A stretch of 56,975 nucleotides of DNA from Armatimonadota bacterium (lineage in GTDB: Bacteria; Armatimonadota; Zipacnadia; UBA1398; JAKPQA01): assembly GCA_029547025.1 (NCBI GenBank), contig JAKPQA010000031.1:1-56975 (forward strand), in the 5' to 3' direction. Shown piece after piece: positions 42,593 through 48,079 of the stretch (position 1 is the stretch's first letter; each line of letters begins with the position of its first letter). Position numbers and translations under genes: made by a program. The notes under the pieces were generated by a model. It searched no databases and was not told the origin of the DNA. It saw only the letters and a list, made by a program, of their open reading frames with translations.

Positions 42593-45500
42593 CTAGCCCT
42601 GCGGCGTGCTCTGCCCGACCCCGGATGCCAGGGCCTTCGAAACCCGCAGCAACACGTCTGCCCGCGCCATGTCATCGGGCAGCAAAGCCGCCAGGGCCTT
42701 CACCCGGTCGGGAACCGTCGGACCGACCGAACTGATCAGGCCCCCCATCAGTCTATCCGCCTCGTCGCGGTCTGTGACCTGCCGGACTGCCTCGATCGCC
42801 CGGTCCAGCAGATCGGCCCGGGCCGGCGGCCCGGAAGCCAGGGCGCACAACGTCTCAGCTCGGATGGGGGCTGGTAGCTTCTCCACTGCGGCCAGCCCAT
42901 TCGCGGGGTCCAGCCGGAATGCGACCACCGCCGCGTCCCGCGCCGCCGTGGCTGCCAGCTCGGGCTCGACATCCGGGCCCAGCGCCTTGAGCGCCGCCGA
43001 CGCCTGCTCCGCCAGCTCCCGCGAGCGCCCTCCCGCCCCGGGAACCGCAGACAGCTCCCGGGCCACCAGCAGCAGCTGCCGAACCCGCAGGGCAGCCGCC
43101 TGTCCGGCATCCAGGTCTTCGTTCGGGCCGATCTGCTCAGCCAGGTGCGCCGCCTGATCGTAGGGGAAGGACGGCCCCAGGGGGTTCTGCTCAGACGCCA
43201 CCTCGCCGATGGTCATGAGAGCCCGGATTGCCTCGACGGCGTCGAGAGCCCCCACCGCGTAGGCCCAGCTCTGCGCGGTGCTCGGGTCCAGCCGAGCCAT
43301 CGCGATGGAGACATCCGCTCGGGCTCGAGCTTGCTCGACCGGCTCGGGCACGGCGAAGGCTGCCTCGAGCGCCGCCTGCGCTGCCGACCGAGCGGCCTCG
43401 GGGGCCGTGGCCCACCAGGCAGTCACGCAGGCTGTGAGGCGCTGACTGCGTTCATAGGCGTCCTCGATGCGCGCCGCCACCTCCATCGCCCGCTGCCGAG
43501 CCCTCGCCGCCCTCTCCGAGTCGGAGCCGGCCAACGCCCCGGCGACACGCGAGTAGGCCCATGCGGCCGTGTCGGCGGGCTCCGACAGGCCGGCCAACGC
43601 CATGGCTTGGTCGGGAGAAGCCGCCGCGAGATCGGCCACCAGCTCACACCAGGCTGCGGGCGCGAAGGCGCCCACGCCGAGCTCCGACGCCAGGGCGAAA
43701 GCCCGATCGGCAGCCGCGGCCGCCACCCGTCCGTTGCCCGCGCACCCATGGGCCACATAGGCGCACGCCGCTGCCTGCGCACGCTGGTCGGGTAGGCTGG
43801 CGGCGAGAGCGGCAGCTTGGGCCGCCAGCGCGGGAACCCCCTCGGACATGTCGGCCAGGCACCGGGCCCGCAGACCCGCGTCGGTGATCCCCTCGGCGAC
43901 CTCCTCCCCGCCCGGCGTTCCCCGGCGTGCCAACGCCAGCGCCAACGCGGCCCGCACCTCGTCCAGGCTCCGCGCGTCGTGCAGGGTACCGAGACGCGCC
44001 CGGGCCGCCCCCGGCGCCAACGGGGCCAAGGCGATCAACACGTCGGCCAACAGGCGCTCGTCGGCCGCAAAGCCTGAGGCCAGCTCCAGGGCCCTATCGG
44101 GGTCCTGAGTCGCGACGCCCGAGATCACGGCGGCCAGCGCGACCTGGCGCTCGGCCTCGCGGACGACGGACTGCGCCAGATCGAGGCATCCCGCTGCTGC
44201 ATCGGGCGGCGCCGCCGCCAGCGTTTCCGCCAGCACGGCGTCGCGCCGCGTCGGTCCCACGGTCCTCGCCATCGACAGAGCGCCCTGCGAGCTCGTCGGG
44301 GCCAGACGTGGAGCCAGCCGGCCAGCCACCTCGTCACACAGGTCCGCCGAGTCGCCGGCCAACCGGAGCGCCTCGGCGCCCAGTGCCGACGCTTGAGCCG
44401 GGTCACGGATGCACAGGGCCTCAGCGACCCGGCCGAGGCTCAGCGCGGGCACGGCCGATCGCCGGGCGCATTCCGCCGTTCTCGCGGCATCCACGCCAAC
44501 GGCCCGATCCCAGAGGGCTGGTTCGGGCACCCACGGAGCGTCGCCCCCGCCGGGCGTCGGACGTAGAATGTCCTCCAGCACGCCCCACGCCCGGCTGGGA
44601 TCCAGCCCAAACAGCGCCGCCGCGACGTTCTGCAGCACGCTCAAGCGGTCGGTGACTGGCAACTCGGCGGCAGGTAGCGCGTCGCAGTCCACGACCACGT
44701 GGTCCAGCAGGGCGACCGCCCTCGAGCGATCGAAAGCCGCCACCGACTGGGCCAGGACCACGCGCGCCTCGAGCCCGCGCGCCGCCGGCCGCAACGCGCG
44801 GGCGGACTCCAGTGCCTGATCTACCACCGGTCCCGCGGCACGCGCGTCTATGGCCCCGATGGCCCGAACGAGAGCCTGCTGCGTCGCGAAACGCTCTTCG
44901 ACGCGCCGGATCGCCGGCGCCGCGCCCAGGTCGGCCTCCAGCAGCTTCACCGCCCGCACCGGGTCATACGGCCCCAGGGCCACCGCCACCTCGCGGCGCA
45001 GCTCCGCCTGCCGGCCCTTATCCCTCACCCGGTCCAGCAACGCGACGGCCTCATCGAGGTCCTTGCGAGCCGAGTTGTCAGCGGCCTGCCGTTTCACCGG
45101 AACCAGGGCGATCAGGCCACAGACGCGTGACTCAGGGTCCGAGAACGCCTGTACGAGTCTCTGGATTGCTTTCGGGTCGCGCACGGCGCCTCTTGCGGCC
45201 AGCGCGGCCAGCGCGGCCGATTGCCGCGCCTCCTCCGGGATGTACCGCAGCAGCGTCAGGGCCTCCGCCCCTGTCGGTCCCTCGGGCCACCGGGCGAGCC
45301 CGAGGGCCGCCTCCGCCCCGGCCGCGGGAACGCCAAGACAGCCGAGCGCCTGCAACCGGACCTCCGAGGTGCCCGCCGCGCCAGGCAGAGCGATCCGAGC
45401 CAGCGCCCGGTCACGCCCGGACGGCGACTCGATTGCCTGCGCGAGCGGCAACGCTGCCTGCGGCGCCGCATAGGCCAGACGCTCACAGGCCACGCCCAAC

Positions 45501-45784
45501 ACGGCATCACGAACGGCTGCGTCGGCCACCGACGAACGGGCCAGCGAGACACCATCGTGCCCGCCCAAGGAGGCCCCTGCAACAGCCGCCCCGGTCAGCT
45601 CCGGTATCACCTGACCCGCTGATCCACGGGCGGCACAGTCGGCGGCGAACTCCAGGAGGTCGACCACGATCTCCGCATCCGGCGGCGTCTGCGCGCCGGC
45701 TGGCGCCAGCAGGAGCCAGACGGTGACCGCGCCCAGCACGGCCACTTCCCCTCTCGAGCGCACTCGAAGGTCTTGCCTCACCAT
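42593..45784 (-). CDS. Exported alpha-helical repeat protein (HEAT/TPR-like), 1063 residues
   Basis: The start is placed at 45784 because it gives a clear signal sequence (VAVLGAVTVWLLLAPAGAQTPP); the frame is open further upstream to 45889 but without a credible start context. The mature protein is almost entirely Ala/Arg/Leu-rich amphipathic helices in repeats of about 35-45 residues, with recurring D-P/R-x-x-A-x-x-L elements (DPVRAVKLLEADL, DRSRAVALLDHVV, DPSRAWGVLEDIL, DPDRALELASGF). This is an alpha-solenoid scaffold. Such proteins mediate protein-protein contacts; no enzyme motif is present. It is divergent from the pseudo-caspase gene with 200 bp between starts, and upstream of a ROK kinase. 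Partner unknown. Confidence 0.6.
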   Translation of the reverse strand: MVRQDLRVRSRGEVAVLGAVTVWLLLAPAGAQTPPDAEIVVDLLEFAADCAARGSAGQVIPELTGAAVAGASLGGHDGVSLARSSVADAAVRDAVLGVACERLAYAAPQAALPLAQAIESPSGRDRALARIALPGAAGTSEVRLQALGCLGVPAAGAEAALGLARWPEGPTGAEALTLLRYIPEEARQSAALAALAARGAVRDPKAIQRLVQAFSDPESRVCGLIALVPVKRQAADNSARKDLDEAVALLDRVRDKGRQAELRREVAVALGPYDPVRAVKLLEADLGAAPAIRRVEERFATQQALVRAIGAIDARAAGPVVDQALESARALRPAARGLEARVVLAQSVAAFDRSRAVALLDHVVVDCDALPAAELPVTDRLSVLQNVAAALFGLDPSRAWGVLEDILRPTPGGGDAPWVPEPALWDRAVGVDAARTAECARRSAVPALSLGRVAEALCIRDPAQASALGAEALRLAGDSADLCDEVAGRLAPRLAPTSSQGALSMARTVGPTRRDAVLAETLAAAPPDAAAGCLDLAQSVVREAERQVALAAVISGVATQDPDRALELASGFAADERLLADVLIALAPLAPGAARARLGTLHDARSLDEVRAALALALARRGTPGGEEVAEGITDAGLRARCLADMSEGVPALAAQAAALAASLPDQRAQAAACAYVAHGCAGNGRVAAAAADRAFALASELGVGAFAPAAWCELVADLAAASPDQAMALAGLSEPADTAAWAYSRVAGALAGSDSERAARARQRAMEVAARIEDAYERSQRLTACVTAWWATAPEAARSAAQAALEAAFAVPEPVEQARARADVSIAMARLDPSTAQSWAYAVGALDAVEAIRALMTIGEVASEQNPLGPSFPYDQAAHLAEQIGPNEDLDAGQAAALRVRQLLLVARELSAVPGAGGRSRELAEQASAALKALGPDVEPELAATAARDAAVVAFRLDPANGLAAVEKLPAPIRAETLCALASGPPARADLLDRAIEAVRQVTDRDEADRLMGGLISSVGPTVPDRVKALAALLPDDMARADVLLRVSKALASGVGQSTPQG

Positions 45785-45984
45785 AGTCGTTCTGCCTTCG
45801 CCGGAGCCCGCGCCGAACCTGCGTCCAGGCCGCGCAGGGACCGTCACTCGCGGTGCCGAACTGCCGGGTCGCGGTTCTCGTCTCACCATCGGGGAACGTT
45901 ACGCGCCGCCGGGTGTCAGAGAGACTGCGGATGTGCAGTTCTGGCGCGCCGCTCCACTGCAGCCCCGATTTGGAGGCCCACGAG

Positions 45985-47328
45985 ATGCGAGTCGTCCGCC
46001 ACCCGCTCGTCGTCGCCGCGGCCGCGGCCCTGGCACTTCCGGCAACTGCCCAGACGCCCGATGCTGTGGACGGATCCACGTGGGCCATCGTCATCGGGAT
46101 CCAGGTCCACGAGGACGACACGCTCATCCCCAGCCGCAAGGGTGCCTATCAGACCGCCAACGCCATCTACGCCTACATCGCCGACCCGGCCCGGGGTGGC
46201 ATCGGAGCGGATCACACCCGCCTGTTGTGCGAGTTCGGGGCCGATCGCAGATCGATCCAGGCGGCGTTCGAGGAGGTCAGGGGGCTCGCCAAGGACTCCG
46301 ATCGGCTGCTGGTCTACGCCGGTCTGCGCACGGCGCTCGCCGCCGACGCCGACGGAAAGATAACCGGTTACTTTTTGCCCTACGACGCTAAGCTCGACAG
46401 CCTGGCCACTACGGCCATCGCGCCCGCTGACCTGGCCGCCTGGATCTCCGCGGTACCGGCCAGGAGGCGCGTGGTCTTCCTCGATGCCGCGTTCGCCGAT
46501 GCCATCAGAGCACCCGGAGCCGAGAACGCGGCTCCGCCGGCCGACTACCTGAATCTGCTGGGCGCGAGTGCCGCCGTTATCGCGGCCACCGACGGCGCCA
46601 AGCCCGTCCCCGAGGACGGGCTCGAGCACCCACTGCTCGGTTTCTCCCTCTACACCGCCATGCAGGGGCCCGGCGACAAGAACCGGGATGGCAAACTCAC
46701 CTTCGCTGAGTTCCTCCAGCACCATGGCGACACCGTGGCGGCCGTCTACCAGGGACAAGAGGGCAACGCACCCCATCCCTACTCGAACGGCGTCGAACCC
46801 GAGCAGGTGCTGGCCGCCGTCCCCCAGGCCGATCCGCGCTGCCCCGACGGCACGCGCCTGGTCGGAGAGGTCTGTATGGACATGTACGAATCCCCCAACA
46901 AACCAGGGGCCCCCGTCTACAACCCGGGCAATTGGTTCGGCGCAGTGGCCGTCTGCCAGCAAGCCGGTAAGCGCCTGTGCTCGACTCAGGAATGGATGCT
47001 GGCATGCCAGGGCCCGGGGTGGAAGTACCCCTACGGCAACGAGTATATCGACAGCTACTGCAACGTGGGCGACACCGAAGGCCACCTCGAGCGCGTCGGC
47101 TCCCGACCGTTCTGTGTCAGTGCGTGGGGCATCTATGACCTCATCGGCAATGCTCAGGAGTGGGCCGGAACCGAGAAGAAGGAAAACGCTACGGTTCTGG
47201 GCGGCCGGTTCTTCGATGCGCCGGGCGAGAGCATCGGCTGCCGCGAGTCCCTGGTCGCCGGGAACCCGATCCTCGAGGGCGCCGAGCTGGGCATGCGCTG
47301 CTGCATCGAACCCAAGCCGACGGAGTAG
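45985..47328 (+). CDS. Exported pseudo-caspase fused to EF-hand and SUMF1-like domain
   Basis: The protein has 447 residues; TGGAGG lies 8 nt before the ATG. A signal peptide ends near ATAQT (23). Residues 31-228 follow the peptidase C14 (caspase-like) plan: STWAIVIGIQ, DPARGGI, LLVYAGLRT, YFLPYDA, VVFLDAAFAD. Family members have GHG after the VYxSG strand and DAC(Y/F)SG at the nucleophile; here these read GLR (113-115) and DAAF, with Ala169 in place of Cys, so the dyad is absent. Residues 231-242 (DKNRDGKLTFAE) are a canonical EF-hand loop. Residues 285-440 are SUMF1/FGE-like (KRLCSTQEWMLAC, YPYGNEY, GIYDLIGNAQEW) with ten cysteines, but the paired active-site cysteines of true formylglycine-generating enzyme are not evident. 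It is probably a calcium-dependent extracellular binding or regulatory protein; that role is inference. Confidence 0.78.
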   Translation: MRVVRHPLVVAAAAALALPATAQTPDAVDGSTWAIVIGIQVHEDDTLIPSRKGAYQTANAIYAYIADPARGGIGADHTRLLCEFGADRRSIQAAFEEVRGLAKDSDRLLVYAGLRTALAADADGKITGYFLPYDAKLDSLATTAIAPADLAAWISAVPARRRVVFLDAAFADAIRAPGAENAAPPADYLNLLGASAAVIAATDGAKPVPEDGLEHPLLGFSLYTAMQGPGDKNRDGKLTFAEFLQHHGDTVAAVYQGQEGNAPHPYSNGVEPEQVLAAVPQADPRCPDGTRLVGEVCMDMYESPNKPGAPVYNPGNWFGAVAVCQQAGKRLCSTQEWMLACQGPGWKYPYGNEYIDSYCNVGDTEGHLERVGSRPFCVSAWGIYDLIGNAQEWAGTEKKENATVLGGRFFDAPGESIGCRESLVAGNPILEGAELGMRCCIEPKPTE

Positions 47329-47389: not shown

Positions 47390-47962
47390 TCACAAGATGC
47401 GGATCTCGATCTCCGGAGTGGCTCCTGGCACCGCCCGGATGCTCAGAATGGAGAACTGTCCGGCCCCGGGGACGAGGGTGATGCTGCTGAAGCTCAGCGC
47501 CGATGGATCGTCTCCTTCGACAACGATGTACACCGCAAAAACCGGTGGGCTGGCCTGCAGGGCCGAACTCAGGAAGGCCAGGGCTTCCGAGTCCAGCTGG
47601 TCCGAGACCGACAGGTTCTGAGCTCCAGCCGGGATGGTTGCCTCGGTGAGCTTCGTGGCACCCGACACCACATTGTCGGCCGTCAGGCCCATGTTCATGG
47701 ACCCGTAGACGCGGACGGTCTGGCTCACGGCCGCTCTGTTCGTCGCGACCATCGAGAACGAGGCCGACGTGAGGCCTCGGAAGTGGCTCTGATACTGCAT
47801 GAACTGCTCGTTGGTCGAGAGATCGATGATCACCCTCTGGAAACCGGTCCGGAGCGATGAACTGCCTGTGCCCAGGTTCACGGACGGCAAGTCCACCTGA
47901 ACCGTGCAGCCCGCAAGCCCTGCTCCGAGGCCGAAAGCCATCGCGAGCAACATGGCGCGCAT
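47390..47962 (-). CDS. Small predicted lipoprotein
   Basis: The protein has 190 residues from the start at 47962, chosen because it places a signal peptide (MRAMLLAMAFGLGAGLAGC) with a canonical LAGC lipobox; the open frame extends upstream to 48040 without a signal. The mature protein is beta-rich (FQRVIIDLSTNEQF, SFSMVATNRAAVSQTVRVYGS, VFAVYIVVEGDD, SSITLVPGAGQFSILSIRAV) and resembles no family I can name. It converges on the pseudo-caspase gene with 61 nt between stops; a 7-bp CCCGGGC stem in that gap could be a weak terminator. Confidence 0.65.
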   Translation of the reverse strand: MRAMLLAMAFGLGAGLAGCTVQVDLPSVNLGTGSSSLRTGFQRVIIDLSTNEQFMQYQSHFRGLTSASFSMVATNRAAVSQTVRVYGSMNMGLTADNVVSGATKLTEATIPAGAQNLSVSDQLDSEALAFLSSALQASPPVFAVYIVVEGDDPSALSFSSITLVPGAGQFSILSIRAVPGATPEIEIRIL

Positions 47963-48079
47963 GTTTCGGTCACCTCGCAGTTCCGGTGTGGGGTCCTGGA
48001 GCTTGGTTCCGACACCGGGTGCACAGCCAGAGGGTTCCACGCCAACGGCTCGGAGTGACCCGGAATCGCTTGTCTGTTT

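Follow-up and report, generated by a model that had tools for sequence, protein, structure and literature searches.

Why would a bacterium keep a caspase fold whose catalytic residues have been replaced? The question is raised by one gene in the window, the whole 56,975-nucleotide stretch of Armatimonadota DNA analyzed here. A preliminary description had read its product as an exported protein with two dead enzyme folds and a calcium switch, suited to binding, sensing or acting as a decoy. The open reading frame, motifs, and residue and codon numbers reported there are all correct in the translation of 45985-47328, which starts with an ATG at 45985, a short way behind a GGAGG, and ends with a stop at 47328. 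The gene and its parts are:

45985..47328, + strand: gene for the predicted pseudo-caspase/SUMF1-like protein, 447 aa (open reading frame, full-length orthologues)
45985..46053, + strand: likely Sec signal peptide, residues 1-23, without a lipobox Cys (read from the sequence)
46081..46737, + strand: caspase-like domain, residues 33-251 (NF047832, genome search, Foldseek)
46315..46332, + strand: YAGLRT, site of the lost catalytic His (alignment)
46489..46491, + strand: codon of Ala169 at the position of the nucleophile Cys, Ser in both orthologues (alignment)
46675..46710, + strand: EF-hand-like Ca2+ loop, residues 231-242, within the caspase domain (Pfam, alignment)
46840..47325, + strand: cysteine-rich SUMF1-like domain, residues 286-447, with ten conserved Cys (Pfam, alignment, profile match)

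By sequence and structure model, the protein has a fold of the caspase clan (Peptidase C14 / orthocaspase). The NCBIfam caspase model NF047832 matches residues 33-251 with an E-value of 2.2e-9, which is not a chance match, albeit below the curated cut-off (37 bits versus 140), and a Pfam search of the protein (P0001) gave no match to Peptidase_C14. The scaffold motifs that had been noticed, VIGI (36-39), DPARGGI, LPYDA and VVFLDA, are all present. The full-length structure model has a mean pLDDT of 37 and serves as a hint only; for the caspase part alone, the AlphaFold prediction, built from just three sequences, is of moderate confidence over its first 140 residues (pLDDT mostly 65-78). In a Foldseek search with this second model, all 50 PDB matches listed look like caspase-clan structures (best E 8.9e-5), and they include Geobacter GSU0716, plant and yeast metacaspases, MALT1 and caspases.

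The fate of the active site was read from an alignment of the three pseudo-caspases with 27 other caspase domains, 30 in all, drawn from the window's genome and from other Armatimonadota. The register of the catalytic residues is fixed by the active paralogue P0004, which aligns directly with solved metacaspases. The His, the Cys and the N-terminal Asp of the S1 pocket are invariant in 27/27 of the other domains. In the window protein and its two orthologues, from the genomes G003 and G004, these columns read R/T/T, A/S/S and T/Y/Y, respectively. The replacement of both catalytic positions is thereby confirmed, with Ala169 (codon 46489-46491) at the Cys and no His at the His column; the DxC motif still has its Asp (Asp167). 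The earlier reading of GHG as GLR is right about the lost His, but its register, which places Leu114 in the column, needs a one-residue gap; ungapped, the residue is Arg115. Both orthologues have Thr there, or Leu with a gap. No His occurs within residues 77-215 of the window protein, nor anywhere in the caspase domain of the G003 orthologue. The three proteins lack the His-Cys dyad of an active Peptidase C14 protease, and they share the feature that classes them as pseudo-orthocaspases, a p20 domain with a replaced dyad. Retention of the acidic S1-pocket residues, a usual though not strictly defining trait of that class, does not hold throughout: Thr replaces the N-terminal Asp in the window protein, and Tyr replaces it in both orthologues.

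Orthologues with an intact His and Cys, the sign of a recent point loss, were looked for and not found. The two full-length orthologues, in G003 (Armatimonadetes UBA1398; 37% identity) and G004 (Armatimonadia Bin_177; 35%), come from both other genomes sampled for the order, and the remaining genomes sampled from the phylum have none. Searching the genome contigs with the window protein alone gave no match, an alignment query retrieved only the two orthologues and one Myxococcota SUMF1 protein, and the viral contigs searched gave no match. What is conserved is the loss of the dyad and not the residues Ala169 and GLR, for which the orthologues have Ser at the Cys and Thr or Leu at the His. The three pseudo-caspases form one clade (support 100/99) on a long stem of length 1.13. 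The G003 and G004 proteins are 74% identical, and this pair, among three orthologues in total, gives an NG86 dN/dS of about 0.18 overall, 0.22 for the caspase part and 0.13 for the SUMF1 part, values that are approximate with dS near 0.9. The reading frame is unbroken in all three genomes, which span two families. Together, the intact frames, the shared clade and the low dN/dS argue that the catalytic loss is old and that the protein has been maintained; on this evidence it is an old pseudo-caspase rather than the product of a recent point loss. A decaying gene, in which an otherwise ordinary orthocaspase-SUMF1 protein has just lost its catalytic residues, would fit a caspase half that evolves faster (30-33% identity between the orthologues and the window protein, compared with 44% in the SUMF1 part) and escapes Pfam detection. 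It is nevertheless highly improbable in view of frames kept across two families, active-site losses shared by all, and a dN/dS well below 1 in the closer pair.

A canonical Ca2+ loop had been described as connecting the two domains. The loop exists: residues 231-242 (DKNRDGKLTFAE) follow the canonical pattern, which arose in only 8 of 20,000 shuffles. Pfam EF-hand matches are weak (15.7 bits versus a cut-off of 25.4) and cover the loop only, and by this measure the sequence would not count as an EF-hand protein. Its residues fall within the stretch matched by the caspase model and not in a linker, and a loop of the same type was counted from the alignment in 19 of the 26 active caspase domains covered there, among them P0004 (DRDLNGVVTFAE). 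Both orthologues have a one-residue insertion in the loop and altered ligands. The alignment thus presents the putative Ca2+ loop as an inherited feature of the caspase domain, not as a linker switch. A sensor in which Ca2+ at 231-242 alters the relation of the two domains, as the preliminary description proposed, draws on the canonical pattern and its rarity by chance; it is improbable, and a special switch between the domains is unsupported, because the loop is common among the active caspases here and degenerate in the orthologues.

The second half of the protein belongs to the FGE-sulfatase family (PF03781; E 2e-10, 41.2 bits versus a cut-off of 23.3), and its profile matches FGE structures with an E-value of 8e-22. 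Ten of the protein's 11 cysteines fall within residues 286-440, and these ten together with His367 are the only Cys or His columns common to all three orthologues. In a profile alignment to human FGE, the position of Cys336 is taken by an invariant Asp411 and that of Cys341 has no Cys. The observation of ten cysteines without the paired active-site cysteines therefore stands, and the domain lacks the catalytic pair that marks a formylglycine-generating enzyme. In the same alignment, numbered by hand, C324/C439 and C341/C419 coincide with C218/C365 and C235/C346 of human FGE, which are named structural disulfides of that enzyme (PMC4505483). This coincidence suggests that the cysteines of the SUMF1 part are most likely structural. 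The domain groups with a cysteine-rich branch that includes a PEGA-SUMF1 protein encoded by the window's own genome (G000:C80) and, from Myxococcota, a triple-SUMF1 protein (L049). Both share the cysteine pattern but have no caspase domain, and with 45-46% best-segment identity they are the nearest relatives of the SUMF1 half found outside the orthologues. The Myxococcota protein (L049:7992-9722) carries three such domains in tandem.

The phrase 'two dead enzyme folds' is consequently supported for the caspase only; the SUMF1 part belongs to a disulfide-braced branch for which we identified no active ancestor. One could still imagine an enzyme acting through the SUMF1-like part with FGE-, EgtB- or PvdO-type activity and the caspase domain as an accessory, given that the fold family includes FGE, EgtB, OvsA and PvdO and that this is the better conserved half. 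The invariant Asp411 at FGE Cys336, the missing Cys at Cys341, cysteines that look structural and a single His (367) conserved in all three make this rather unlikely. A SUMF1/C-type-lectin protein diversified by a DGR was also considered and rejected: no reverse transcriptase (RVT_1) was matched in the protein's own genome, whose assembly is 96% complete.

An active caspase elsewhere in the genome had been proposed as something to look for, and one was found. P0004 (G000:C100:17034-18902; L003:1438-3381) is the only active caspase detected in the window's genome and its only Pfam Peptidase_C14 match. It is an active-type caspase with FAGHG and FDCCHAG motifs and a hydrophobic N-terminus and, like the window protein, it has a caspase domain with a Ca2+-like loop followed by a SUMF1 domain. 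It differs in its intact His and Cys, a long middle region and a cysteine-poor SUMF1 domain, and the two are 26-29% identical. Such a partner, likewise fused to SUMF1 and likewise with a hydrophobic N-terminus, would fit a decoy or dominant-negative regulator, whose dead domain pairs with the cell's active caspase or competes for its substrates. This idea is weakened, however, because two of the three genomes, G003 (98% complete) and G004 (90%), have no detectable caspase besides the pseudo-caspase. Binding of the same basic substrates is moreover improbable since the S1-pocket Asp is lost, and we consider a decoy unlikely. Of the roles first suggested, binding survives by analogy, while the decoy is weakened and sensing through a calcium switch unsupported. 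Caspase genes also occur in adjacent pairs in another sampled genome (L042, G001:C454; L044, G001:C43), with DUF4384, TPR or PEGA parts and all catalytic residues intact.

The N-terminus of the window protein (MRVVRHPLVVAAAAALALPATAQT) resembles a Sec signal when read by eye, and the protein is probably exported, as had been stated more firmly before. Its gene stands alone between a divergent gene upstream (42593-45889) and a convergent one downstream (47390-48040), neither with a Pfam match. The former (− strand) encodes a 1,098-aa alanine-rich, repeat-like protein and was not detected in the G003 and G004 genomes in a search run without a positive control. The orthologues adjoin a gene for a protein of about 1,200 aa (L040:6707-10276 in G003; L041:3179-6868 in G004), probably exported, in which what look like nucleotidase-type, DsbA-like (CGYC) and multihaem (CxxCH) parts are joined in a single chain. 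A conserved operon partner was rejected, as the window genome's relative of this protein (40%) lies on a different contig (C311). Because the gene neighbours differ between the window copy and the orthologues, the genomic hint of a partner is absent.

We therefore favour, with a probability of about 0.58, a maintained, order-specific extracytoplasmic pseudo-caspase that acts by binding and not by proteolysis. What the sequences show is that three divergent orthologues retain the caspase fold although all of them have lost the catalytic His, the nucleophile Cys and the Asp of the S1 pocket. After export from the cytoplasm, the SUMF1/C-type-lectin-like domain would fold with up to five disulfides and might provide the main surface for ligand contact, because it is the better conserved half. 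The caspase domain could act as a protein-interaction or scaffold module devoid of protease activity, and with the S1-pocket Asp lost it is probably not presenting the old substrate site. An extracytoplasmic binding or adaptor role, in which contact is made mainly through the SUMF1-like domain, is, by analogy, the best remaining reading. More tentatively, and somewhat doubtfully, these proteins may be an order-specific exported family in which a caspase fold minus its dyad and an S1-pocket residue became a receptor-type binding module, coupled to a disulfide-braced SUMF1/lectin-like domain and independent of any active caspase in the cell.

The locus is a clear example, from a phylum that has received little study, of bacteria retaining a caspase fold for a task other than proteolysis, probably outside the cytoplasm. 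As no active caspase was detected in two of the three genomes, it becomes directly testable whether pseudo-caspases in bacteria do no more than regulate their active counterparts. A loop of the calcium type is ordinary in such proteins, as is a SUMF1 domain that lacks the FGE cysteines, and neither gives evidence of special design.

Several known systems invite comparison. Inactive caspase domains have been proposed as dominant-negative or peptide-binding modules (PMC7159879). The EACC1-caspase two-gene conflict system from the same work was rejected here: the 5' neighbour is divergent and without Pfam match, not a co-directional EACC1, and NF047832 scores 37 bits where 140 are required. FGE, SUMF1 and SUMF2 share the fold family of the second half, and four of its cysteines fall where FGE forms its two structural disulfides; compared with FGE, the window protein lacks the catalytic cysteine pair and has six further cysteines. 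Among 9,994 bacterial orthocaspases, 858 carry dyad substitutions, mainly Tyr-Ser or Tyr-Asn, with highly conserved Asp residues in the acidic specificity pocket (PMC6426788), and a knock-out phenotype has been reported for one pseudo-orthocaspase (PMC7889975). As in these proteins, the caspase p20-like domain has other residues at both catalytic positions and is maintained across species; relative to those of PMC6426788, the window protein also lacks one pocket Asp, has Arg/Thr (Leu with a gap) at the His, and belongs to Armatimonadota. Fusions of metacaspase or orthocaspase with FGE-sulfatase domains make up 33 of 671 sequences, one of which, from Trichodesmium, is dyad-negative (PMC3501461). 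They have the same two-domain order, whereas the window protein has a ten-cysteine SUMF1 domain, a caspase domain below Pfam detection and a dead form conserved in one order. The literature thus already describes pseudo-caspases from bacteria, at least one dyad-negative FGE-sulfatase fusion among them, and the window protein is a variant of this kind.
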